NCBI GenBank assembly: GCA_902778255.1
Contig: CACYXD010000002.1
Coordinates: forward strand, 124,001 to 188,000
DNA length: 64,000 nucleotides
Source: an uncultured Prevotellaceae bacterium
Lineage (GTDB): Bacteria; Bacteroidota; Bacteroidia; Bacteroidales; Bacteroidaceae
Direction: 5' to 3'
In this document: positions 2 to 47,698 of the stretch, piece by piece
Position numbering within the stretch: position 1 is the first letter of the stretch
Layout: each line of letters starts with the position of its first letter
Made by a program: the position numbers and the translations under genes
The notes under the pieces: generated by a model
The model's database searches: none
What the model was told of the DNA's origin: nothing
Seen by the model: the letters and a program-made list of their open reading frames with translations, nothing else

Positions 2-3000
2 GATCCTACAAAGCGAGACGGTGGAACAACTGTCATCATCGCGAATGGTACAGTGGGTACTCTTGATGGTGGAAGCCTCGTATCGGGTACTGGTAATGTC
101 TATGGCGGTGGTAAGATTGGCCGTGTAGAGAAGAATACAGTTGTCACCATCGGTGTGGAAGGTGCTACTGGTGCAGGAACCAAGTTCAGACCTACTGTCT
201 TAGGTAGTGTATTCGGTGCAGGACAAGGTGTTGCAACTCACGGATACTCTGCTCTGGTTCGTGGTAACAGTACTGTCACCATTCAAGGTGTTGCCAAGGT
301 TGGACAAAGTGTATATGGCGGTGGTGAGAAGGCTTCTATCGGACGATATACCATTGCGCAAACTGATGAAGATGCTACGGCACATGGAGTAGAAAAGGGT
401 ATGCCTTATTCTCTGTTGTCAGACAATAGCGGCAGTTGTACAGTTATCGTCAGAGACAGTGCTGAAATAGGACCTAATGACATGATTATGACAAGGGCTG
501 GCGGTCCTGATAACTCGGGCCATGTCTTTGGCGCTGGTCAGGGCGTTTATCCTTATGAAGGCTTCTCAGGTGTAAATAAACCATGGCGTATGACGATAGG
601 TGGTACCAAGGAAATATATAATACTGCTACTGCTGCTGATACACTTTTATATCTGAAGTATGTTGAATCTCTTGGCTTGGCTACCCAGACAGATGTCACT
701 ATTGGTGGAAATGCCTTCGTGAAGGGTGATGTCTTTGGCGGTGCAGAGCAAGGATTTGTGCAGCACGATACAAAGGTAACCATAAAAGATAACTGCCAGA
801 TTGGTGGTGGTTATGTACAGATGAATGATGCTGGTGAGTACTTGTTATCACCGTACAGTCTTAACCGCCGTTATACAGACGCAGAGTGGGCTGATGGACG
901 TCTTTACAAATATGGTGAGAGCAATTATCAGCATTCTCTGCCTGAGTGTGCAAGCTGGAGGTATCAGTCTCCATATGCTGCGCATGATATATTTGCTGGC
1001 ACTGTTGGTTACGACTCTAAGGGGGGCGCACTTACAGCAACCAACGGCAGTACCTTCTATGGTAATGTCTTCGGTGGTGGATCGGGCTATTTCCCCTATG
1101 CCGCAGGTAAATGGCACTGGAAGGCTGGTGATGTTGGTGGCAATACCGTAGTGGAAATCAAGGGCGGTCATATTCTGACCAATGTGTATGGTGGTAACGA
1201 GCTGACAAATGTGGAAGGATCGTGTACTGTTACGATGTCAGGTGGTACCATCGGTGTGCCTCGTACCCTAGGTCAGATTACAAAGCACCCAGTAACCTGT
1301 TACCTCTTCGGTGCGGGTAAGGGTGACCCACGTGTATTGTTTAACAAGCAGACCAATGTACAGAACGTTAAGGTTAATGTTACTGGTGGCACCATCTACG
1401 GTTCAGTCTTCGGTGGCGGTGAGGATGGTCACGTGCTTGGCAATGACACGGTGAATATCAGCGGTGGTACCATTGGAACTTGGGGTACTTCCTATGTAGA
1501 TGGTAACGTCTTCGGTGGCGGTCGTGGTTTTGCAGGTGATGCCTATACCGCAGGTAACGTGGCTGGTAGCGTGACGATGAATATCACAGGCGGAACGATG
1601 TTAGGATCGGTCTATGGTGGCGGTCGTCTGGGGTCTGTGGGCTACGGTTTGTATGACGCAGGCGCAACAGGATACGGCGAGATGCGTGACGATAACAAGA
1701 TGGATGATGGTACAACTGCTCCTGCAGGAATGTTCCCGAATGGACGTGGTCACGTGGAAATCAACATCAGCGGCGGTACCATAGGTAATACCTATGAATA
1801 TAAAATACCTGATGCCACAAACATTGCAACTTTAAATACGGCTTTAAGTAAGTCTTTAAATACAGACTTCACACAATGGAGCGCTTCAGACTGGACGACC
1901 TGGCAGGATTATTACAATGTGCCAAGTACCACCTATGACACCTCTGACGGCAAACTGCACCACACAAGAGGTGGTAATGTTTATGCCGGAGGCATGGGAC
2001 GTCGTCTGAACCTGGCAGGTAATCCAATCTCAATGGCAAATGAGGGCATTAACTGGCTTAAGCTGGGTAATGTCAAGAGTACCAAGCTGACGATTACTGG
2101 CGGTACCATCAAGAGTAATGTCTATGGTGGTGGCGAGTATGGTGCCGTGCAAGGCAACCACAACGTGCTTGATGGTGAAGGCAATCCTATCAAGATAAAT
2201 AATAAGAATGTGGTCGCTGGTACGGAAATTATCATCACCGGTGGCACTATCGGTACCGAGATTCTTGGTGAGAGTGCTTCAGACGTAAAATACACCTACG
2301 GTAGTGTCTTTGGCGGCGGTACCGGTACTACAGACGATGTCGAGTTTACGTATCCTGTTGCTAAGGCTGATACGTTGGGAGCTTATGTTGCTGACAGTAC
2401 GAGGATAACGTTGACCAACGCTAAGGTGAAAGCCAGCGTCTATGGCGGTGGTGAGCTTGCTGCTGTGGGTGGTAACACCCATGTTACTATCAGCGGAACG
2501 ACTGAGATAGGACGCAACGAGGTCTATGGTATGGATGATGAGAATCCTGGCTATGTGAAGTATGGTAGCTGGCGTATGGGTAACGTCTATGGCGGTGGCC
2601 GTGGTAGTGAAAAGGCTGCTATTGCCGGATTGGTAGAGGGTAACACCAACGTCCTTATCAGCGGCGGTAATGTTTACCATAACGTCTATGGTGGCGGTGC
2701 CATAGGTTCTGTCGGTACCTTCTTCGTATCTGAAGGACCAGGACCAGGAAGGCGACCCATACCAGCAGGTGTTCCTTACTGGAACGTCGACGGAGAAGGT
2801 ACTAAAGGTCCAAATGGACTTGCTGATGGAAATACTGGTTTGGCAACTGTCACGATTACAGGTGGTACCATCGGTATCAGCGGACGTGACAACGGTATGG
2901 TATTCGGTTCATCACGCGGTGGTATCTCAGATCCTAATGAATATTATACGCAAACGGAAATAGATAATGCCACTGTAGGTGACGATGCCTACGGTAAGAC

Positions 3001-5371
3001 CACTAATGATGTCAAGAGTACTGGCATCGACCAGTACGATAGGGTTGCATGGGTGAGAGGTTCTGTCGTCAACATCGGTGCACCAAACAGCAGTGGCAGG
3101 GCAACTGTGCTTATCAAGGGCTCTGTCTATGGTGGCGGTGAGAATGGTCACAACTACCAGAATGCCGTGGTGAATATCAATAGCGGTACCATCGGTATTG
3201 CTGATAAGATTCCTGGCACCAGTGACGATGATCCTTGGTGGAACTTCAAGAAAGATGGAGTTGATAACGATTCCATCAATGAGTATGTCCGTGCATACCG
3301 TGGTAACGTCTATGGAGCCGGTAGTGGTTCGGATTACTATAAAGAAAGAAAGGGCAATAAGCATTACAACCCGAAGTCTGGCTTTGTAGGCGGTAGTACA
3401 ATAGTCAACATCAAGGGCGGTCATATAGGACGCGCTGTATATGGTGGCGGTGCTATGGCCTCTGTGGGTAATGTCACTAATGATACGACAATTACCAGGA
3501 GCAACTATGAGGCAAGAGGAAAGACTGTATCAGATATTTCAAAAAATGAAGAGAAGACCAATAGCTTTGCACTCAGTTGGCCGTATAGGTTTGAGTTCGC
3601 ACCAATGACCGGTAAGGCCACCGTCAATGTGACGGGCGGTCATATCGGCACGAAGGATGTTGATGGCGGTGACGTCTTTGGTGCTGCCCGTGGTGAGGCT
3701 GGTGACAGATACGCTACGGCTCACATGGCATACACCAATGAGACCGAGGTGACTATCAACTATCCGTCCACTGCAGACCTTCCAAATATGGCAGCAATAC
3801 AGAACAACTATGATACGCCGTGTGTCACAGGTGCAGTACATGGCAGCGGTGAGAACGGCTTCGTCTATGGCGATACCAAAGTGACGCTGATAAATGGTTT
3901 GGTAGGCCACTCTATCTATGGCGGTGGTAAGGGTAAGGGTACCTATACGAAGACACTGAATAAGGTAGTTGGTAGTGGTACTTATCCAGCTAAGATTTAC
4001 AGTCTTATTGCCGGTAAGGTATTCGGTAATACCTCCGTCACCATGCTGGGCGGCCGTGTAGGACGAAATATCTATGGCGGTGGTAACACGGGTTCTGTCG
4101 GTAAGGGTAACTTTGCTGGTGGTACGGATGACTACGTTAATGACTGTGAATTAGGAGCAGCACAAGGCTATGGTGAGAGGATAAATGAAGCGTTGTGGAC
4201 ACCAAGTGCAAACTTTAACCCCAACGCACCTATTAAATTGCCAACTACACCTGGTGCTTCTGCCCCCTATAATATTCCTGTGACCAATGCTGACTACTTC
4301 CTCAGCAGTGGTAAGACGACTGTGAATGTCATCAGCGGTACCGTAGGCTACATCGATTCAGATCCTACCGTTAGCATGAAGAACCAACTACCTTACGGTA
4401 ACGTCATCGGTGGTAGTGCCGGTGAGGCAGCGCCTAACATTACAGAGGATCCTCGCTATGAGTATAGTCCAGCCTTCTTCTCTGGCTATGTGAACGAAAC
4501 TGATGTCACCATTGGTGGATACAGGTGTAAGACGGCTTATACTGGCCATGCCGTGGGAGACCTGATGACTGCCAAAGATTTCGAGGATGTAGCTGTGGGT
4601 GATACTGCCAAGTGGGAAGTGGTTGGTCCGACCATCTATGCTTCGGTCTATGGCGGTGGTCAGGATGGTCATGTGCGCCGCGATACGAAGGTGACAGTCT
4701 TGGGCGGTGAAATTGGTAAGCCTTATAATGCAACCAATATCTCACTCTTAAAGACCGATAACCTTGACGACCCACAGTGGCTGCACCGTGGTAATGTCTA
4801 TGGTGGTGGTTCTGGTATCACAAAGTATAAGTATGACTTCGATGGCGACGGCAAGACCGACAAGAACGACGGTTCGCTGACCTATGATGAAAAACCTGTC
4901 AACGAGGAGGATTACAGTAACTCTTCTGGTTCTGTGACACGCTTCACAGAGGTCAACATTCTGGGCGGCACCATACATCGTAACGTGTATGGTGGTGGTT
5001 CAATGGGTTCTGTAGGTGCTCCGAATATGGGACAGAATTATGTTCCATATAAAAAGGATCTAACTAATCAGGCCACTCTTGGTAAGCAGTCACAGAATAC
5101 CATCAATATCGGTGGCGGCAAGAAGGTGGTCATTATAGGAACACCATACGATAGCGCAAAGGGCTGGACCTACAACAAACTCTATGGTGGTGAGGTGTAT
5201 GGTGCTAGCCGTGGTATGTCAACATTGAATCCTGAGGAGTTCTCTAATTCTGTATGGACCGAGGTAAATATCTTCGACAAGGCCACTATCATGGGCAACG
5301 TCTATGGCGGCGGTGACAATGGTGCCGTGAAGAAGAATGCCGAAGTTAATGTTGGAGGAATTAAGCATTAA
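2..5371 (+). CDS. Giant repeat-rich surface-type protein, 5'-partial
   Basis: The frame is open from base 2, so the true start lies upstream of the window and about 1,790 residues are visible. The protein is built from roughly 30 degenerate repeats: a strand such as TVTISGGTIG followed by NVYGGG or SVFGGG plus a loop. This pattern suggests a long beta-helix or solenoid at the cell surface. A calcium-binding-like loop, DFDGDGKTDKND, lies near 4834-4870. There is no membrane segment and no recognisable type IX sorting domain at the C-terminus. The last complete motif (NVYGGGDNG) is followed shortly by a stop that lies inside a 7-bp tandem repeat (5360-5387), so the original end may have been lost. 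Adhesin-like by composition only; function not known. Confidence 0.75.
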   Translation, partial: DPTKRDGGTTVIIANGTVGTLDGGSLVSGTGNVYGGGKIGRVEKNTVVTIGVEGATGAGTKFRPTVLGSVFGAGQGVATHGYSALVRGNSTVTIQGVAKVGQSVYGGGEKASIGRYTIAQTDEDATAHGVEKGMPYSLLSDNSGSCTVIVRDSAEIGPNDMIMTRAGGPDNSGHVFGAGQGVYPYEGFSGVNKPWRMTIGGTKEIYNTATAADTLLYLKYVESLGLATQTDVTIGGNAFVKGDVFGGAEQGFVQHDTKVTIKDNCQIGGGYVQMNDAGEYLLSPYSLNRRYTDAEWADGRLYKYGESNYQHSLPECASWRYQSPYAAHDIFAGTVGYDSKGGALTATNGSTFYGNVFGGGSGYFPYAAGKWHWKAGDVGGNTVVEIKGGHILTNVYGGNELTNVEGSCTVTMSGGTIGVPRTLGQITKHPVTCYLFGAGKGDPRVLFNKQTNVQNVKVNVTGGTIYGSVFGGGEDGHVLGNDTVNISGGTIGTWGTSYVDGNVFGGGRGFAGDAYTAGNVAGSVTMNITGGTMLGSVYGGGRLGSVGYGLYDAGATGYGEMRDDNKMDDGTTAPAGMFPNGRGHVEINISGGTIGNTYEYKIPDATNIATLNTALSKSLNTDFTQWSASDWTTWQDYYNVPSTTYDTSDGKLHHTRGGNVYAGGMGRRLNLAGNPISMANEGINWLKLGNVKSTKLTITGGTIKSNVYGGGEYGAVQGNHNVLDGEGNPIKINNKNVVAGTEIIITGGTIGTEILGESASDVKYTYGSVFGGGTGTTDDVEFTYPVAKADTLGAYVADSTRITLTNAKVKASVYGGGELAAVGGNTHVTISGTTEIGRNEVYGMDDENPGYVKYGSWRMGNVYGGGRGSEKAAIAGLVEGNTNVLISGGNVYHNVYGGGAIGSVGTFFVSEGPGPGRRPIPAGVPYWNVDGEGTKGPNGLADGNTGLATVTITGGTIGISGRDNGMVFGSSRGGISDPNEYYTQTEIDNATVGDDAYGKTTNDVKSTGIDQYDRVAWVRGSVVNIGAPNSSGRATVLIKGSVYGGGENGHNYQNAVVNINSGTIGIADKIPGTSDDDPWWNFKKDGVDNDSINEYVRAYRGNVYGAGSGSDYYKERKGNKHYNPKSGFVGGSTIVNIKGGHIGRAVYGGGAMASVGNVTNDTTITRSNYEARGKTVSDISKNEEKTNSFALSWPYRFEFAPMTGKATVNVTGGHIGTKDVDGGDVFGAARGEAGDRYATAHMAYTNETEVTINYPSTADLPNMAAIQNNYDTPCVTGAVHGSGENGFVYGDTKVTLINGLVGHSIYGGGKGKGTYTKTLNKVVGSGTYPAKIYSLIAGKVFGNTSVTMLGGRVGRNIYGGGNTGSVGKGNFAGGTDDYVNDCELGAAQGYGERINEALWTPSANFNPNAPIKLPTTPGASAPYNIPVTNADYFLSSGKTTVNVISGTVGYIDSDPTVSMKNQLPYGNVIGGSAGEAAPNITEDPRYEYSPAFFSGYVNETDVTIGGYRCKTAYTGHAVGDLMTAKDFEDVAVGDTAKWEVVGPTIYASVYGGGQDGHVRRDTKVTVLGGEIGKPYNATNISLLKTDNLDDPQWLHRGNVYGGGSGITKYKYDFDGDGKTDKNDGSLTYDEKPVNEEDYSNSSGSVTRFTEVNILGGTIHRNVYGGGSMGSVGAPNMGQNYVPYKKDLTNQATLGKQSQNTINIGGGKKVVIIGTPYDSAKGWTYNKLYGGEVYGASRGMSTLNPEEFSNSVWTEVNIFDKATIMGNVYGGGDNGAVKKNAEVNVGGIKH

Positions 5372-5390
5372 GAATTAAGCATTAAGCATT
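5360..5390 (+). repeat. 7-bp tandem repeat, 4 units (ATTAAGM)
   Basis: Four consecutive heptamers ATTAAGC/ATTAAGA run from 5360 to 5387 and end in ATTG. They supply the last codons and stop of the giant protein and the TTG start of cobU. Confidence 0.8.
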
Positions 5391-5937
5391 GAAAAAGATT
5401 ATCATGATAACTGGCGGGCAGCGCTCAGGGAAGAGTGAGGAAGCCGAAAGGCTGGCACTATCCTTGAGTGCTGCCCCCGTCTATATGGCCACGGCTCATA
5501 TATGGGATGAAGAGTTTCGTGAGCGGGTGCGCCGTCATCAGGAGCGACGCGGCCCGGAGTGGACCAACATCGAGGAGGAGATTCACCTCAGTCATCACGA
5601 TGTGACGGGGCGCGTGGTACTCATCGACTGCGTCACACTGTGGCTCACGAATCTATTCTTCGAGAATCAGGGGGATGGGGCGCGTGATTCAGCATTGAAT
5701 CATGGACCTGTCCCCTCTGTGATTCTCGAGAAAGCCAAGGCAGAGTTTGACCGCTTTACCTCTCAGGATGCCACCTTTATCTTCGTGACCAACGAGATAG
5801 GGCTGGGCGGGGTGAGCGAGAATACCCTGCAGCGGCAGTTCACCGACCTGCAGGGCTGGATGAACCAGTATATCGCACAAAAGGCCGACGAGGTGATACT
5901 CATGGTATCAGGGATACCAATGAGAGTTAAGAGTTAA
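5389..5937 (+). CDS. cobU: Adenosylcobinamide kinase / adenosylcobinamide-phosphate guanylyltransferase
   Basis: CobU phosphorylates adenosylcobinamide and then transfers GMP from GTP, making AdoCbi-GDP for CobS. The P-loop ITGGQRSGKS is at the N-terminus; DCVTLWLTN and FVTNEIGLGGV are further family motifs; the end GWMNQYIAQKADEVILMVSGIP is typical. TTG at 5389 is chosen because it gives the usual MKKII start; ATG at 5404 is the alternative. Residues about 92-113 (around RDSALNHGPVP) are an extra loop encoded by a palindromic element (5661-5728). The final residues RVKS come from a 7-bp repeat. The gene begins 17 bp after the giant repeat gene, and there is no room there for a cobalamin riboswitch. 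Confidence 0.9.
   Translation: MKKIIMITGGQRSGKSEEAERLALSLSAAPVYMATAHIWDEEFRERVRRHQERRGPEWTNIEEEIHLSHHDVTGRVVLIDCVTLWLTNLFFENQGDGARDSALNHGPVPSVILEKAKAEFDRFTSQDATFIFVTNEIGLGGVSENTLQRQFTDLQGWMNQYIAQKADEVILMVSGIPMRVKS
5661..5728. repeat. Palindromic element, copy 1, in frame inside cobU
   Basis: The ends CGAGAATCA and TGATTCTCG are inverted repeats, and the centre pairs TGATTCA with TTGAATCA. The right arm carries GGACCTGTCCCC; the left arm is more decayed. It is shared with the copy at 6595-6659 and read in the same frame, giving RDSxLNHGPVP in both proteins. Confidence 0.8.
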
Positions 5938-5986
5938 GAATTATCGCCTATGGCGAATATGAATTATGGATGATGAATTAAGCATT
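5924..5986 (+). repeat. 7-bp repeats at the cobU/cobT junction
   Basis: GAGTTAA, GAGTTAA, GAATTAT run from 5924 to 5944. A small CGCC-TAT-GGCG hairpin region of 14 nt follows, then ATGAATT, ATGGATG, ATGAATT, AAGCATT from 5959 to 5986. The repeat encodes the cobU C-terminus and stop and the first residues of cobT. Confidence 0.7.
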
Positions 5987-7018
5987 GAGAAAATACAAGC
6001 AAAGATTGACAATCTGAATAAGCCGAAAGGTTCTTTGGGACGACTGGAAGAACTGGCTTTGCAGATTTGTCTGATTCAGCAGACATTAGAACCACGCCTT
6101 AGCCACCCATGTCACCTGCTTTTAGGTGGCGACCACGGCATTGAGCGTGAGGGAGTCAGTGTGTCGCCCCGTGAGGTGACCTGGCAACAGATGATCAACT
6201 TTACGCGCGGCGGCGGCGGTGTGAATATGTTCTGCCGTCAGCATGGGTTTGACCTGAGCATCGTAGATGTAGGAGTAGATTATGACCTCTCGCAAGTGCC
6301 AGGCATCCTTGACCGCAAGATAGCTCGCGGTACAAAGAACTTTCTCTATGAGCCGGCCATGAGCGAGGCCGAATACCAGCAAGCCCTCACTGCGGGCGTC
6401 AATTTGGTTGATGCCTGCAAGGATAAAGGCTGCAACATCCTGAGCATCGGCGAGATGGGCATCGGCAACACCTCGCCCTCCAGCATCTGGATGCACCTCT
6501 TCTGCAACATCCCATTGGAGGAATGTATCGGTGCCGGCTCTGGCCTCAACAACGACGGCATCCGCCATAAGTACGAAGTGCTTTCAAAGGCGGTCGAGAA
6601 TCACAGGGACAGGTCACGTGATTCAAAATTGAATCATGGACCTGTCCCCGCGATTCTTGACGAAGTCATCCGCTACTTCGGTGGCTTCGAGATGGTGGCT
6701 GCTATCGGGGCTATGCTGCGTGCAGCCGAACTGCGTATGATCATCCTTGTCGATGGTTTTATCATGACAGCCTGTGCACTGGCTGCCTGCCAACTGCGCC
6801 CTGAAGTGAAGAACTTCATGATTTTCGCCCATTGCGGCGACGAGAGCGGACACAAGAAGATGCTCGATTCCCTTGGAGCTAAGCCCCTGCTCAACCTCGG
6901 TCTCCGACTGGGCGAAGGCACAGGCGCACTCTGCGCCTACCCTATCGTGGATTCCGCTGTACGAATGATTAACGAAATGAACAATTTTCAGAATGCCAAC
7001 ATCACAAAATACTTCTAA
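5966..7018 (+). CDS. cobT: Nicotinate-nucleotide--dimethylbenzimidazole phosphoribosyltransferase
   Basis: CobT makes alpha-ribazole 5'-phosphate from the lower-ligand base and nicotinate mononucleotide. Family motifs visible: NKPKGSLGRLEELA near residue 20, GDHGIEREGVS, MGIGNTSPSS, and the C-terminal GxGTGA-type loop (RLGEGTGALCAYP). Length (350) is normal for the family. Start at 5966 is tentative, since the first residues (MDDELSIEK) are encoded by 7-bp repeats and no Shine-Dalgarno is present. Residues about 211-231 (around RDSKLNHGPVP) are an extra loop from the second palindromic element. The 3' end overlaps cobS by 26 bp. Confidence 0.92.
   Translation: MDDELSIEKIQAKIDNLNKPKGSLGRLEELALQICLIQQTLEPRLSHPCHLLLGGDHGIEREGVSVSPREVTWQQMINFTRGGGGVNMFCRQHGFDLSIVDVGVDYDLSQVPGILDRKIARGTKNFLYEPAMSEAEYQQALTAGVNLVDACKDKGCNILSIGEMGIGNTSPSSIWMHLFCNIPLEECIGAGSGLNNDGIRHKYEVLSKAVENHRDRSRDSKLNHGPVPAILDEVIRYFGGFEMVAAIGAMLRAAELRMIILVDGFIMTACALAACQLRPEVKNFMIFAHCGDESGHKKMLDSLGAKPLLNLGLRLGEGTGALCAYPIVDSAVRMINEMNNFQNANITKYF
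6595..6659. repeat. Palindromic element, copy 2, in frame inside cobT
   Basis: This is the better-preserved copy. Two arms reading AGAATCaCaGGGACAGGTC and its complement flank a centre, TGATTCAAAATTGAATCA. It lies between conserved cobT blocks (GIRHKYEVL and IRYFGGFEMVAAIGAM) without breaking the frame. Confidence 0.85.
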
Positions 7019-7835
7019 AGACAGCTCCTCAAGGTTCTCCTTGGGGCCCAAATGGTACGACCGCCCCTGGTCAGCCTTCATTTTCTTCACCCGCCTACCC
7101 TTCTGGCGCCTGCACGAGCCTCCTCGTCAATGCTATAACTCCGTGGTAGAATGGTGGCCCCTCACCGGTTGGCTCACCAGCGGTGTGATGGCAGCCATTC
7201 TCTATTTCGGTTCCCAATTAAGCATGATGCATTATGAATTATGCATTCTTCTTGCCATCATCGCCCGCATCCTCATAACGGGTGCCCTCCACGAAGATGG
7301 ACTAGCCGATTTCTTTGACGGTTTTGGCGGTGGCGGCACCAATCGTGAGCGCATCCTCACCATCATGAAGGATTCGCATATTGGCACCTACGGCATGCTG
7401 AGCCTCATCCTCTACCTCGCCCTACTCTACCTCTGCCTCTACAATATGACACCGCTGATGGCCGCCCTCACCGTATTGGCTGCCGACCCCTACGCCAAGA
7501 TGCTAAGCGCACAGATGACCCAGATGATGCCCTATGCCCGAACGGAAGAGACCTCGAAGGCCCACACCGTCTATCGCCGCATGAGTATTCTATCAGGTAT
7601 TCTTTTAGCCATACAGGGACTGCTGCCCCTGGGCATCTTTACATTTCTAACTTCCAACCTCTCACCACTCACCTCTCAGCCATCCTGGCAGTGGCTGCTC
7701 TTTGTCCCTTGCCTCACGATGTATTGCCTCTATCGCTTCGTATGGCATCGTCTGCGCGGCTATACGGGCGACTGCTGTGGTGCCTTCTTCCTATTGATAG
7801 AACTCAGTATATATCTGACTGTAGTACTTTCCTGA
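6993..7835 (+). CDS. cobS: Adenosylcobinamide-GDP ribazoletransferase (cobalamin synthase)
   Basis: This integral membrane enzyme joins AdoCbi-GDP to alpha-ribazole (phosphate), the last assembly step. The motif FTRLPFW is near the N-terminus, followed by GALHEDGLADFFDGFGGG with the conserved acidic residues, and several hydrophobic helices. The start overlaps cobT by 26 bp, suggesting coupling; a TTG at 7039 is an alternative. Two stretches of 7-bp repeats lie inside the frame, at 7217-7251 (QLSMMHYELCIL) and 7649-7683 (around NLSPLTSQPS). A cobC-type phosphatase gene, which often follows in Bacteroides, is not present. Confidence 0.9.
   Translation: MPTSQNTSKDSSSRFSLGPKWYDRPWSAFIFFTRLPFWRLHEPPRQCYNSVVEWWPLTGWLTSGVMAAILYFGSQLSMMHYELCILLAIIARILITGALHEDGLADFFDGFGGGGTNRERILTIMKDSHIGTYGMLSLILYLALLYLCLYNMTPLMAALTVLAADPYAKMLSAQMTQMMPYARTEETSKAHTVYRRMSILSGILLAIQGLLPLGIFTFLTSNLSPLTSQPSWQWLLFVPCLTMYCLYRFVWHRLRGYTGDCCGAFFLLIELSIYLTVVLS
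7217..7251 (+). repeat. 7-bp repeat inside cobS (first)
   Basis: Five degenerate heptamers: ATTAAGC, ATGATGC, ATTATGA, ATTATGC, ATTCTTC. They are the same family as the repeats at the cobU and cobT ends. Confidence 0.7.
7649..7683 (+). repeat. 7-bp repeat inside cobS (second)
   Basis: Heptamers AACTTCC, AACCTCT, CACCACT, CACCTCT, CAGCCAT, read in frame between two membrane segments. Confidence 0.55.
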
Positions 7836-7868: not shown

Positions 7869-7956
7869 CGTGATCAAGGCTTAAAGCCATCAGTACCAAG
7901 GCAGGAAACTGTCAGTTCCAAGGCCTGAAACTGTTAGTTTCAAGGCTGAAAACTAA
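7869..7956 (+). repeat. 22-bp period tandem array, 4 units
   Basis: Four 22-bp units start at 7869, 7891, 7913 and 7935. Units 2 and 3 both begin CAGT, share CCAAGGC and end GAAACTGT. The array fills most of the 142-bp gap between cobS and the aldo/keto reductase. No TAnnTTTG promoter is visible here. Confidence 0.75.
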
Positions 7957-18643: not shown

Positions 18644-18678
18644 AAATGAGAAATGAGAAATGAGAAATGAGAAATTAA
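18644..18678 (+). repeat. 7-bp tandem repeat AAATGAG, 4 exact units plus one variant
   Basis: AAATGAG is repeated exactly at 18644, 18651, 18658 and 18665, then AAATTAA. It lies in the short gap between the ffh promoter and the queH/fthC stop. Confidence 0.85.
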
Positions 18679-18698: not shown

Positions 18699-19838
18699 TC
18701 AAATTACCTCATCCACAAGGACGTCGTGTTTCTCCGACGGCACCTCAGCCACACGTTGGAAGGGGAAGCAAATGCCTAATAGATATGGGTGGTGGGTGGT
18801 GAAAAAATGTGCATTTAGGAATCGGTCGTAATAGCCTTTGCCACGACCCAGACGATGACCAGCAGCATCAAAAGCCATACCAGGAACTAAGATCATATCT
18901 ATCTGGTCGTAATCTACGAAAGGCTCGCCAACGGGTTCCATGATATGGAAAGCCCCTTCTTCAAGGTCGGCACGTGAAGCATAGTGACGCAGTTCCATCG
19001 TCTCATCACCTGTAACTTTAGGAAGGATTATCACTATACCTTGAGCGACCAACAGATCTACCAACGGACGGATATCCACCTCATCAGGCAAAGGCCAATA
19101 AGCCATTACTGTCTGCGGATTACGCGATGCGACAATTCCTTGTAGTTTCTCCGCCACCTCTTCCGACATCTTCGGCAACTGGGCTTGATGTTGCTTTTTC
19201 GCCTCACGCATCTGGGCACGAAGCAGGGGCTTCGTGTTCGCACCATTTCTAGCCGAAAACTCACATCCGCAGTACTGTTGGTTATAGAACTGATTCTCTT
19301 TGAGCAACTGATTGCGACGCTCCTGCAATCCCCCCTTACGCCAGTTCTGGGCCCAAAAGACAACGTCATTGACCATTGAGCGTTGACCATTGACCATTTG
19401 TTCAGCGATATGACCTGCCCGTTCTATCTGTTCCAGACTTTTCCATCGACTGGAGGCCAGCGTAGTGGTAAAATAGCGGAAGCCCAGCTCCTGAGCCCTA
19501 CGGGCAGTCTCTGTCAATCGGAGTGTAAAGCACTGTTCGCAACGGAGGCCCCGTTCGGGTTGGTTCTCCAACCCGCAAACGCCCATACGCCATACTTGAT
19601 GGTCATAATCACCATCAATCCATTCTATTCCCAAACTCTCTGCATGACGTTTACTCTCGTTCTTACGAATCTCGTACTCCTCGCGAGGCCAGATATTAGG
19701 GTTGTAATAAAAAATGGTGGGACGCACACCATTCGCCATCAGCCATTCTACAATAGCCGATGAACAAGGTGCACAACAAGCATGCAACAACACCTTGTCA
19801 CAGTCCTCTGGCTTTCCAAATACGTTCTTTCGCGGCAT
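18699..19838 (-). CDS. Fusion of epoxyqueuosine reductase QueH and 5-formyltetrahydrofolate cyclo-ligase
   Basis: Residues 1-195 are QueH: HACCAPCSS (19-27), YNPNIWP, RCEQCFTLR (99-107) and YCGCEFS (189-195), the cysteines that bind the iron-sulfur cluster and reduce epoxyqueuosine in tRNA. From about residue 203 a 5-FCL domain follows, converting 5-formyl-THF to methenyl-THF: LRAQMREAK, LPKVTGDETMELRHY and the ATP/folate-site loop GRGKGYYDRF. No stop separates the two. Residues 149-158 (VNGQRSMVND) are encoded by a 7-bp repeat. The start at 19838 overlaps the DnaJ gene by 41 bp; longer starts would overlap it more. Confidence 0.88.
   Translation of the reverse strand: MPRKNVFGKPEDCDKVLLHACCAPCSSAIVEWLMANGVRPTIFYYNPNIWPREEYEIRKNESKRHAESLGIEWIDGDYDHQVWRMGVCGLENQPERGLRCEQCFTLRLTETARRAQELGFRYFTTTLASSRWKSLEQIERAGHIAEQMVNGQRSMVNDVVFWAQNWRKGGLQERRNQLLKENQFYNQQYCGCEFSARNGANTKPLLRAQMREAKKQHQAQLPKMSEEVAEKLQGIVASRNPQTVMAYWPLPDEVDIRPLVDLLVAQGIVIILPKVTGDETMELRHYASRADLEEGAFHIMEPVGEPFVDYDQIDMILVPGMAFDAAGHRLGRGKGYYDRFLNAHFFTTHHPYLLGICFPFQRVAEVPSEKHDVLVDEVI
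19367..19401 (+). repeat. 7-bp repeat inside the queH part (CATTGAC)
   Basis: CATTGAC, CATTGAG, CGTTGAC, CATTGAC, CATTTGT. In the gene it reads as tandem TCAATGG units, in frame, between two conserved QueH blocks. Confidence 0.75.
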
Positions 19839-21282: not shown

Positions 21283-22866
21283 TCAACCATTTTTTTCTAT
21301 ATACAATGCACACATTTCTGCACAACGTTCTCCATCGACACCCGCCGAGACTATTCCCCCTGCATAACCAGCTCCTTCACCGCAAGGGAAAAGGCCCTCT
21401 ATCTGTACATGCATCAAGGTTTCATTGTCACGCACGATACGAACAGGGGAAGACGTTCTGGTCTCTACTGCAATCATCACAGCCTCGTTGGTCAGGAAGC
21501 CATGAGCCTGCTTACCAAACTGACGGAAGCCCTGCTGCAGACGTGAGACGATCGGTTTCGGCATCCAGAAATGCAGAGGCGACGATACCAGGCCTGGGGC
21601 ATAAGAACTCCGAGGCAGATCGTAACTCAATTTCCCATTAACGAAGTCTGCCATACGCTGCGCAGGAGCCGTTTGCTTCATATTACCCTGTTGCCAGCAC
21701 ATCCGTTCCAACTCCTCCTGAAAACGCATCATGGCAAGTGCGGGAGCAGATTCTTCACTCTTCACTCTTAACTTTTCACTTTCTATATCTTCCGGCCTCA
21801 CTTCAACCACCATGCCCGAGTTACTCCATTGTGTGCCACGACTGGCAGGACTCATACCATTGACCACAATCTGCTCAGGACCGGTGGCTGCTGGAATCAC
21901 GAAGCCACCCGGACACATACAGAATGAATACACACCACGACCATCCGCCTGAGTCACAAAAGCATACTCAGCTGCAGGCAACCATTGTCCTCTACCCTCT
22001 TTACGATGATACTGTATCTGGTCTATCAACAGCGAGGGATGCTCCAAGCGTACGCCAACAGCAATGCCCTTAGCCTCTAGATGAATTTTTTCCTCATTCA
22101 AATAGCGATACACATCACGAGCAGAATGACCTGTAGCCAGAATCACGGGACCAACGTATTCTTTGTCGGCTGCAAAACAGCCGACCACACGTTGTCCAAC
22201 AATAAGCAAGCGCTCCACCTTGGTTTGGAAGTGCACCTCGCCACCACATTTTATAATAGTGTTACGCATGGCCTCAATAACTTGCGGCAGTCGGTCGGTG
22301 CCTATATGGGGATGAGCATCAGCTAAGATATTGGTCGAAGCACCATGCTGACAGAACACGCGGAGAATCTTCTCTATGTTACCACGTTTCTTTGACCGCG
22401 TATACAGTTTCCCATCTGAATAGGCGCCTGCCCCACCCTCGCCAAAACAGTAGTTGCTCTCACCATCCACTTGTTGGGTACGTGAGATGTTCGCCAGATC
22501 CTTTTTACGCTCATGCACGTCCTTACCTCGTTCCAATACAACTGGTCTGAATCCCAACTCAATGAGTCGGAGAGCCGCAAAGAGACCACCAGGACCAGCC
22601 CCCACCACGATGACCTGTGGTCTGTTGCTCACATTCTGATAGTCTACATGCTCAAACTCATCCTCAGTAGGAAGTTCGTTCACATAAACCCTCACCTTCA
22701 GGTTCACAAAGATGGTACGCTGCCTTGCATCTATCGAGCGCTTCAGTATGCGCACAGCTTTCAGAGCGCCCAGGGCCAGTCCCTGTTCCTCGGCAATATA
22801 TTTCCTTAATTGTTCCGTGTTGGCCGCCACCTGCGGCAAAACACGAAGTTGATATTCGTTTGTCAT
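21283..22866 (-). CDS. FAD-dependent oxidoreductase-like protein
   Basis: An N-terminal domain of about 90 residues precedes a dinucleotide-binding fold: VVGAGPGGLFAALRLIELG, then VVLERGKDVHERKKD and GEGGAGAYSDGKLYTRSKK. ATGHSARDVYRYL and CMCPGGFVIPAATG are typical of this conserved but uncharacterised flavoprotein family; the end reads FPCGEGAGYAGGIVSAGVDG. The start at 22866 is chosen because the promoter element (22873-22880) lies just upstream; the frame is open to 22902. A 7-bp repeat (21751-21785) is read in frame as SEKLRVKSEES. No partner gene is adjacent. Confidence 0.85.
   Translation of the reverse strand: MTNEYQLRVLPQVAANTEQLRKYIAEEQGLALGALKAVRILKRSIDARQRTIFVNLKVRVYVNELPTEDEFEHVDYQNVSNRPQVIVVGAGPGGLFAALRLIELGFRPVVLERGKDVHERKKDLANISRTQQVDGESNYCFGEGGAGAYSDGKLYTRSKKRGNIEKILRVFCQHGASTNILADAHPHIGTDRLPQVIEAMRNTIIKCGGEVHFQTKVERLLIVGQRVVGCFAADKEYVGPVILATGHSARDVYRYLNEEKIHLEAKGIAVGVRLEHPSLLIDQIQYHRKEGRGQWLPAAEYAFVTQADGRGVYSFCMCPGGFVIPAATGPEQIVVNGMSPASRGTQWSNSGMVVEVRPEDIESEKLRVKSEESAPALAMMRFQEELERMCWQQGNMKQTAPAQRMADFVNGKLSYDLPRSSYAPGLVSSPLHFWMPKPIVSRLQQGFRQFGKQAHGFLTNEAVMIAVETRTSSPVRIVRDNETLMHVQIEGLFPCGEGAGYAGGIVSAGVDGERCAEMCALYIEKNG
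21751..21785 (+). repeat. 7-bp repeat inside the FAD protein gene
   Basis: TTCTTCA, CTCTTCA, CTCTTAA, CTTTTCA, CTTTCTA. In gene orientation this is the GTGAAGA/GTTAAGA type, translated without breaking the frame. Confidence 0.75.
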
Positions 22867-47491: not shown

Positions 47492-47566
47492 GAACGGCGT
47501 GATCGTCATTTACGATGTTATTTGCCTCAATATTCGAGAACCGCAATGGAAATATTATACCTTTTT

Positions 47567-47698
47567 GCGAAGCAGCCTCAAACGCAATGCGAAACAGGCT
47601 GAAACGCGATGCGAAACAGCCTCAAACGCAAGGTGAAATAGCCTCAAACGCAAGCTAAAACAGCCTGAAACGCAAGGCGAAACAGGCTAAAACGCAAA
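47567..47698. repeat. 22-bp tandem array, 6 units, next to feoB
   Basis: Six units of exactly 22 bp start at 47567, 47589, 47611, 47633, 47655 and 47677. The consensus starts GCGAAACAGCCT and ends AAACGCAAG. There are no spacers. It ends 2 bp before the feoB stop codon (47701-47703) and so forms its 3' untranslated region. Confidence 0.9.

Follow-up and report, generated by a model that had tools for sequence, protein, structure and literature searches.

We analyzed a stretch of 64,000 nucleotides (hereafter the window) from an uncultured Prevotellaceae bacterium (contig CACYXD010000002.1, positions 124,001 to 188,000), in which the neighbouring cobalamin genes cobU and cobT each contain a palindromic element. 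These palindromes are very probably REPINs, i.e. hairpin-forming pairs of repetitive extragenic palindromic (REP) units, which have been retained in frame within protein linkers and have a cognate REP-associated tyrosine transposase (RAYT). The source is a draft assembly (3.51 Mb, 69 contigs), and its nearest named relative found was Prevotella communis, with 94% identity in CobT across the 312 alignment columns used for the tree. The host genes and the two insertions are located as follows.

5389..5937, + strand: cobU, adenosylcobinamide kinase / guanylyltransferase, 182 aa, host gene (Pfam PF02283, E 4.6e-54; NCBIfam NF004469 above cut-off)
5661..5728, + strand: probable in-frame REPIN copy in cobU (NQGDGARDSALNHGPVPSVI), with an intact right arm (GGACCTGTCCCC) and a decayed left one
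5966..7018, + strand: cobT, nicotinate-nucleotide-dimethylbenzimidazole phosphoribosyltransferase, 350 aa, host gene (Pfam PF02277, E 8.4e-128; TIGR03160 above cut-off)
6595..6659, + strand: probable in-frame REPIN copy in cobT (NHRDRSRDSKLNHGPVPAIL), with two near-intact arms

A first-pass annotation made from the sequence alone had proposed that one palindromic element occurs in both genes. This was borne out, as the two palindromes, with a spacing of 934 nt, are 86% alike over 56 nt, and their folding as DNA hairpins surpassed all dinucleotide shuffles (z = -6.8 for cobU and -7.5 for cobT; 0/200 shuffles as good). The centre TGATTCANNATTGAATCA, allowing up to two mismatches, yielded four strand-matches in the window, all of them within the two copies, where 0.09 were expected. 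Inverted arms had been described for both copies, which applies to the cobT copy (arms of 23 nt, 87% complementary) and only in part to the cobU copy, whose left GGGACAGGTC arm has decayed to GGGGGATGGGGCGC (the left GGGACAGG arm being lost), so that the right arm alone is intact. The same frame is indeed open in both copies, giving the peptide ENQGDGARDSALNHGPVPSVIL in CobU and ENHRDRSRDSKLNHGPVPAIL in CobT; the element codes for 20–21 residues, and the PF02283 and PF02277 matches each extend across the insert.

Next, the element was searched for in the rest of the genome. Besides cobT and cobU, a 76-base query recovered full copies on contig C10 and elsewhere on contig C2; with the cobT copy as query, the identity was 85% to the C10 copy and 81% to the cobU copy. 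The ten-base motif GGGGACAGGT occurs at 16 places versus none for the reversed pattern; two of these places appear to be chance matches (C9:7240 and C14:151505, the latter in a kinase-like open reading frame (ORF)). Full pairs were found six times: one is intergenic (C38) and five are in frame in genes, namely those for CobU, CobT, an RluA-family pseudouridine synthase (C10), ClpA (C2) and a GT4-type glycosyltransferase (C13, Pfam). Each of the five copies in genes is open in at least one frame per strand. Single units lie around a transposase gene on contig C15 and at a few further places. Thus, further genomic copies exist, also in frame in unrelated enzymes, and orthologues without the palindrome lack the peptide RDSxLNHGPVP; either a lack of other copies or the same peptide in such orthologues would have spoken against the proposal. 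Contig C31 has three copies of a half-unit (L007, L008 and L010), each continuing into a longer stretch common to all three (GCTCAAAGA[AT]TCACCAATCCAAAAGGAGTG), and one of these copies is read in frame close to an ORF end.

The transposase gene (C15:9155-9946) encodes a protein of 264 aa that matches the Pfam family Y1_Tnp (PF01797, E 1.9e-12, 47.8 bits versus a cut-off of 23), carries the motifs NHVH (HuH) and YIHQNP (Y), and is one of four such genes in the genome. It is flanked by GAATCACGGGGACAGGTCTTTGATTCA upstream and TGAATCAAAGACCTGTCCCC downstream, with the units in inverted orientation. It had been remarked initially that the arms recall REP repeats mobilised by Y1 transposases; units of the same sequence do bracket a Y1 gene, here and in relatives, and this suggestion is the stronger of the two interpretations offered at that stage. 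At a threshold of E 1e-25, related RAYTs were detected in 60 of 299 genomes of the genus. Of 30 of these loci, the gene was readable at 24, and there the GGGAC[AG]G unit is present on both sides in 14 cases, on one side in seven and on neither in three, compared to a background of 0.13 per 590 nt across 30 helicase loci. The closest RAYTs have GGGACAGGT..TTGATTC-type units, the more distant ones GGGACGGTTC or GGGACGGGTACC types. As the unit type differs with RAYT distance, repeat and transposase change together.

This association is also visible in the distribution of the element. The inverted pair GGGACAGGT-N6..36-ACCTGTCCC is found in 44 of the 299 genus genomes (reversed control pattern: one), and 26 of these 44 also encode a RAYT, where about nine were expected (p 3.6e-10). 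An order-wide sample of 295 genomes contained the pair in four, one being the window's own, and the control in two, so that the other three pair-bearing genomes are near background.

We further looked into the position of the element within its host proteins. The CobU loop measures 43 residues here versus 30–31 in 54/77 sequences measured; a further 13 that do not have this palindrome measure 37, and P. communis has 35. Similarly, the CobT loop has 39 residues versus 26–31 in 51/80; in P. communis it has 44 and holds another repeat. Since the element encodes 20–21 residues and the net gain is smaller, it must have taken over some of the residues of a variable linker. The initial description of the element as inserted in frame therefore holds with the qualification that the linker was partly replaced rather than purely extended. 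In the RluA-family enzyme, the spacing is fixed at 28 residues in 14 of 20 sequences and amounts to 41 with the element in the window genome; the other five show 30, 32, 36, 48 and 50 residues, the last three with DNA that looks repeat-like by eye. ClpA of the window genome exceeds four relatives at the element by about 17, 17, 14 and 6 residues. In all four host proteins compared with orthologues, the element is thus located in a variable linker. Salmonella-type CobU also has a long stretch at the insert position in the alignment, and sequence searches against solved structures returned known CobT/ArsAB and CobU relatives only. The predicted CobU model (mean pLDDT, i.e. predicted local distance difference test, 84.2; pTM, predicted template modelling score, 0.83) places the insert (about residues 92–111) in a stretch of low confidence (residues 91–110 at a pLDDT of 61–62) between confident blocks. 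The CobT model is moderate (mean pLDDT 74.8, with other models down to 56.6; pTM 0.82) and shows the insert as a helix end plus loop, residues 221–230 averaging 56. Both predicted inserts would fit a linker tolerated by the fold.

As a next step, the location of the element relative to genes was surveyed across the genus. The census comprised 73 distinct sites, drawn from the first matches listed per genome in 30 of the 44 pair-bearing genomes. To be counted as intragenic, a site had to be in frame within an ORF of 200 aa or more, called by our own script, and to be flanked by 30 aa of that ORF in both directions. By this definition, 20/27 sites are intragenic in the subfamily that has TGATTC..GAATCA arms and includes the window's copies, versus 4/46 in the other subfamilies (p 1.3e-8). 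Requiring a Pfam domain in the same ORF leaves 18/27 versus 2/46 (p 1.2e-8). The 27 subfamily sites come from 14 genomes, ten of which have at least one in-gene copy, and the other 46 sites from 22 genomes. One genome, G032, has a pair-pattern count of 53; the seven of its sites that were read for the census all belong to another subfamily, and none lies inside a long ORF. The hosts over the 24 in-gene sites, named from our reading of their Pfam matches, include DnaG primase, glutamate synthase, RsmF, a radical SAM iron-sulfur protein, a MurF-alanine racemase fusion, a sulfatase, TolC-type and barrel outer-membrane proteins, an amidohydrolase, an HI0933-like protein and two RecD-like helicases; four of the 24 ORFs (L143, L155, L179, L204) have no Pfam match. 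In six hosts (L178, L194, L200, L201, L203, L205) the element lies within the span of a single Pfam match, as it does in CobU and CobT. Sites met later and kept outside the census are in frame in ORFs of 331, 889 and 393 aa in the L081, L046 and L084 genomes, while the one met in P. communis lies outside long ORFs.

How this bias is to be read depends on the expectation. By our own calling, ORFs cover about 92% of the window and of 80 relatives' loci, so that 74% intragenic sites is near what blind insertion without purging would give. However, an insertion in a gene must keep the frame, avoid stops and be tolerated, and survivors would accordingly be expected to be mostly intergenic, which is an argument and not a measurement. 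Survival of open frames alone was considered as the cause of the bias and set aside (2.85 of six frames open in the subfamily versus 2.16–2.29 in the others). It is likely that the subfamily as a whole prefers genes, or is best preserved in them, as judged from a partial census and a post hoc split. The core length is 3n+1 at 20/24 intragenic sites. The frames in use at these sites are GPVP-type (14), ATCP-type (9) and one other, and this variety indicates that the peptide itself is not what is kept. Counted outward from GGGACAGG over 27 copies in genes, the seventh pair is A-T in 19, G-C in six, C-G in one and mismatched in one; the eighth is G-C in 12, A-T in five, C-G in three and mismatched in seven. 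Complementarity drops to background a few bases beyond the GAATCA ends. The pairing of the outer arms by differing bases across copies fits recognition of a folded strand.

The linkers themselves turned out to hold other repeats as well. In 52/81 orthologues, the CobT loop ranks first for repetitiveness or for palindromic character among all stretches of its gene (about 48 others), where by our estimate about three orthologues would be expected. Its contents vary by species and include period-7 arrays, 9-nt arrays, unrelated palindromes (L081, L044) and an GGGACGGTTC pair (L082); relatives of the window's element are found in L046 and, much decayed, in L084. In a CobT tree made without the loop (79/81 sequences), the window, L046 and L084 fall into three separate clades, and the window's sister is P. 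communis (support 99/93), which has a 9-nt array in the loop instead; the fork of L046 with its neighbour is weak (97/73). The tree allows for repeated insertion as well as for one old insertion with many later losses, the former being simpler. Outside the genus, 6/21 CobT loci were cleanly delimited by the search pattern (it took in extra sequence in 10/21 and failed in 5/21), and their loops have 26–27 residues and no repeat by eye. A second hot-spot is the NATRIR..LPxI loop of a RecD-like helicase, read at 30 loci (L237–L266). Here, L237 and L252 have pairs of different subfamily (census sites L159 and L148), L249 has one palindrome of 26 nt around GGGGACAGGTCCC, which can be read as a reduced copy, and L239 and L245 have repeat arrays. 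As in the RluA-family enzyme, repeats in the helicase loop were judged by eye.

Altogether, a REPIN would consist here of two inverted REP units (GAATCA-NN-GGGACAGGT-nnn-TGATTC) that form one hairpin of about 60–70 bp, and the copies in genes would be non-autonomous relatives of the REPs flanking the RAYT-type Y1 gene of the same genome. We infer that the RAYT recognizes the folded single strand and spreads copies. Copies entering genes would survive only if the frame is kept and the site is a tolerant linker between structural blocks, a filter with which the sites found are consistent. A core length of mostly 3n+1 would let copies with different spacers keep register. In-gene copies would then decay by base changes or in-frame deletions while the host protein stays open, as the decayed cobU arm and the reduced helicase copy suggest. 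In a broader reading, which we put forward tentatively and would rate as somewhat short of probable, a transposase-linked lineage has moved from intergenic space into proteins in a reading-frame-proof form, the linkers serve as shared, fast-turning landing sites, and repeats are a continuing source of linker sequence throughout the genus.

Several observations weigh against the REPIN interpretation. The C15 protein scores below the cut-off of the NCBIfam family for REP-associated tyrosine transposases (NF047646, E 1.3e-17, 64.1 bits, cut-off 80), and the GT[AG]G foot is absent, the outer bases being GAATCA/TGATTC and variants. At the threshold used, 18 of the 44 pair-bearing genomes have no RAYT, although many assemblies are incomplete. 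Concerning the gene bias, the subfamily patterns were written after the sites had been seen, and 12 of the 20 in-gene sites come from three genomes (G266, G114 and G147), sites within a genome not being independent. A core length of 3n+1 is also found at 18/28 sites outside ORFs, several of them near-identical copies, which makes it weaker evidence for frame selection than it looks. Among the genomes compared, one per species, no exact empty site was found: CobU, CobT, ClpA and the RluA-family enzyme show net gains only, leaving the junctions undefined, and neither transposition nor excision nor presence and absence between strains was observed.

One possible alternative is that nothing transposed into these genes and that unconstrained linkers were overwritten by copied repeat DNA, through template switching or gene conversion between short repeats. 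This would also explain the period-7 arrays in the same places. In its favour are the replacement of linker residues without a clean addition, the period-7 arrays, 9-nt arrays or unrelated palindromes in the CobT loop of other species, and the other repeats in the RluA-family and helicase loops. Yet the whole element is common to sites in many unrelated genes, its presence tracks RAYTs, and arm pairing is kept with changed bases, which the copying of fragments would not preserve; we therefore regard overwriting as unlikely. A role at the DNA or RNA level, such as a cob operon hairpin kept for the control of transcription or mRNA stability, might be suggested by the strong hairpins and by the two copies in adjacent genes. 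However, neither site of P. communis has the element, the cobU copy has a decayed arm and the remaining copies in genes have unrelated hosts, which makes such a role very improbable; a terminator or operon signal was rejected on the first and the last of these grounds. Even less credit can be given to the idea that RDSxLNHGPVP is useful as a peptide and was spread for that reason: NHGPVP is common to the CobU, CobT and ClpA copies, but the peptide is not conserved between orthologues, and the use of different frames speaks against a conserved useful peptide, which was rejected. Chance similarity or an assembly artefact, for which the fragmented draft could be cited, is opposed by the excess of central-motif matches and already contradicted by independent relatives with the element, of which two have it in this CobT loop too.

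Elements of this kind are known, and the comparisons made here draw on parts of the papers cited. REPINs and their link to RAYTs were described in 2011 (Bertels and Rainey, PMC3116915), and the present element shares with them the inverted pair of short palindromes, the hairpin, the dispersed copies, the units beside a Y1-type gene and a REP type that varies with the type of RAYT. It differs in that extragenic space was analyzed there, whereas the present subfamily is mostly in frame in genes and lacks the GT[AG]G foot. Inverted units forming one hairpin, dispersed copies and units at RAYT genes (at least one side at 21/24) are all found here; the extragenic location is not, with 20 of the 27 subfamily sites in frame in long ORFs, but it belongs to the name of REPs and not to their structural definition. 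In-frame intragenic GTAG/CGTC REPs were reported in 2013 (PMC3733652), most REPs there being intergenic. More than half of the intragenic inserts were dimers or groups encoding 20–30 residues, and in recB of two Xanthomonas different REPs occupy about one site (PMC3733652). The likeness lies in REPs in frame inside known proteins; those repeats belong to other sequence families, and the main text of that paper does not contain the word Prevotella.

In the TnpA-REP subclass 2.6 of Bacteroidetes, the flanking hairpins are atypical in lacking GT[AG]G and recur at other places of the genome, and REP-like structures without GT[AG]G are described for this subclass and for class 3 (PMC6006769). The motif YIHQNP fits its YIH[QN]NP and the flanking hairpins are likewise atypical, but the middle motif here is FQDR, nearer to subclass 2.1, and the HuH-Y distance of the C15 RAYT, counted by eye, falls below the median reported for subclass 2.6, which is 82 (PMC6006769). 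A resemblance to Rickettsia palindromic elements (RPEs), about 150 bp in length, with ten families in Rickettsia and 44 in-frame insertions in R. conorii (PMC10969869), had been the other initial suggestion. It stands as an analogy, since both are palindromic and inserted in frame in unrelated metabolic genes (PMC10969869, PMC3733652), while the evidence ties the present element to REPs and RAYTs. Filing it as an RPE was rejected, as the RAYT association points elsewhere.

While the kind of element is thus already known, the gene-dwelling bias and the shared linker hot-spots were not found described: among the titles and abstract openings listed in searches of the open-licence literature, which are not proof of absence, none gives an account of such elements in Prevotella, and no gene-dwelling subfamily or shared linker hot-spots were met there. 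REPs are named for being extragenic, and a lineage found mainly in genes is the opposite; together with sister lineages outside genes in the same genus, it offers a natural comparison for the life of mobile elements in coding DNA. The reuse of the same linkers by unrelated repeats is a concrete, testable case of repeat DNA supplying bacterial protein sequence. Should the broader reading hold, mobile and repeat DNA would keep providing proteins with new linker sequence in the genus as a whole.

In addition to the palindromes, the window contains several period-7 tandem arrays, the following of which lie near the cobalamin genes (Tandem Repeats Finder).

5360..5390, no strand: period-7 tandem array (ATTAAGC), running from the last part of the preceding ORF into the beginning of cobU
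5923..5943, no strand: period-7 array (AGAGTTA), at the cobU-cobT junction
7217..7247, no strand: period-7 array (ATTATGC), inside ORF 6993-7835 after cobT; below the threshold of our own count
7657..7678, no strand: period-7 array (ACCTCTC), inside ORF 6993-7835; below the threshold of our own count

The ORF at 6993-7835 is a putative cobS, from the reading of its translation, and directly upstream of cobU lies an ORF of 1772 aa (53-5371) rich in GG(G/N) repeats. Further period-7 arrays are located at 18644-18675, 19367-19398 and 21752-21782. Over 606 kb from the window and the relatives' loci, 94 period-7 arrays were counted, 61 of them wholly inside ORFs, versus 0–11 for other periods from 4 to 13; the counts for period 14 overlap the period-7 arrays. 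The unit differs and the period is constant. Their density per 100 kb is 16.8 at the CobT loci and 12.2 at the helicase loci of the genus, and 3.6 at CobT loci of other genera. They also occur in frame in genes beside cobT, including the ORF after it (L026, L028, L029 and others). Heptanucleotide TAACTGA repeats (PMC4679880) are likewise period-7 tandem DNA, some of it in Bacteroidetes, but those have one fixed unit and are described as intergenic, whereas many units, mostly inside ORFs, are seen here. Tandem repeats of 22 bp are present in the window at 7875-7954 (TCAGTTCCAAGGCAGGAAACTG) and 47566-47697 (TGCGAAACAGCCTCAAACGCAA), and at C15:21300 a REP unit is adjoined by a GAAACTGTCAGTTCCAAGGC stretch that resembles these 22-bp repeats.

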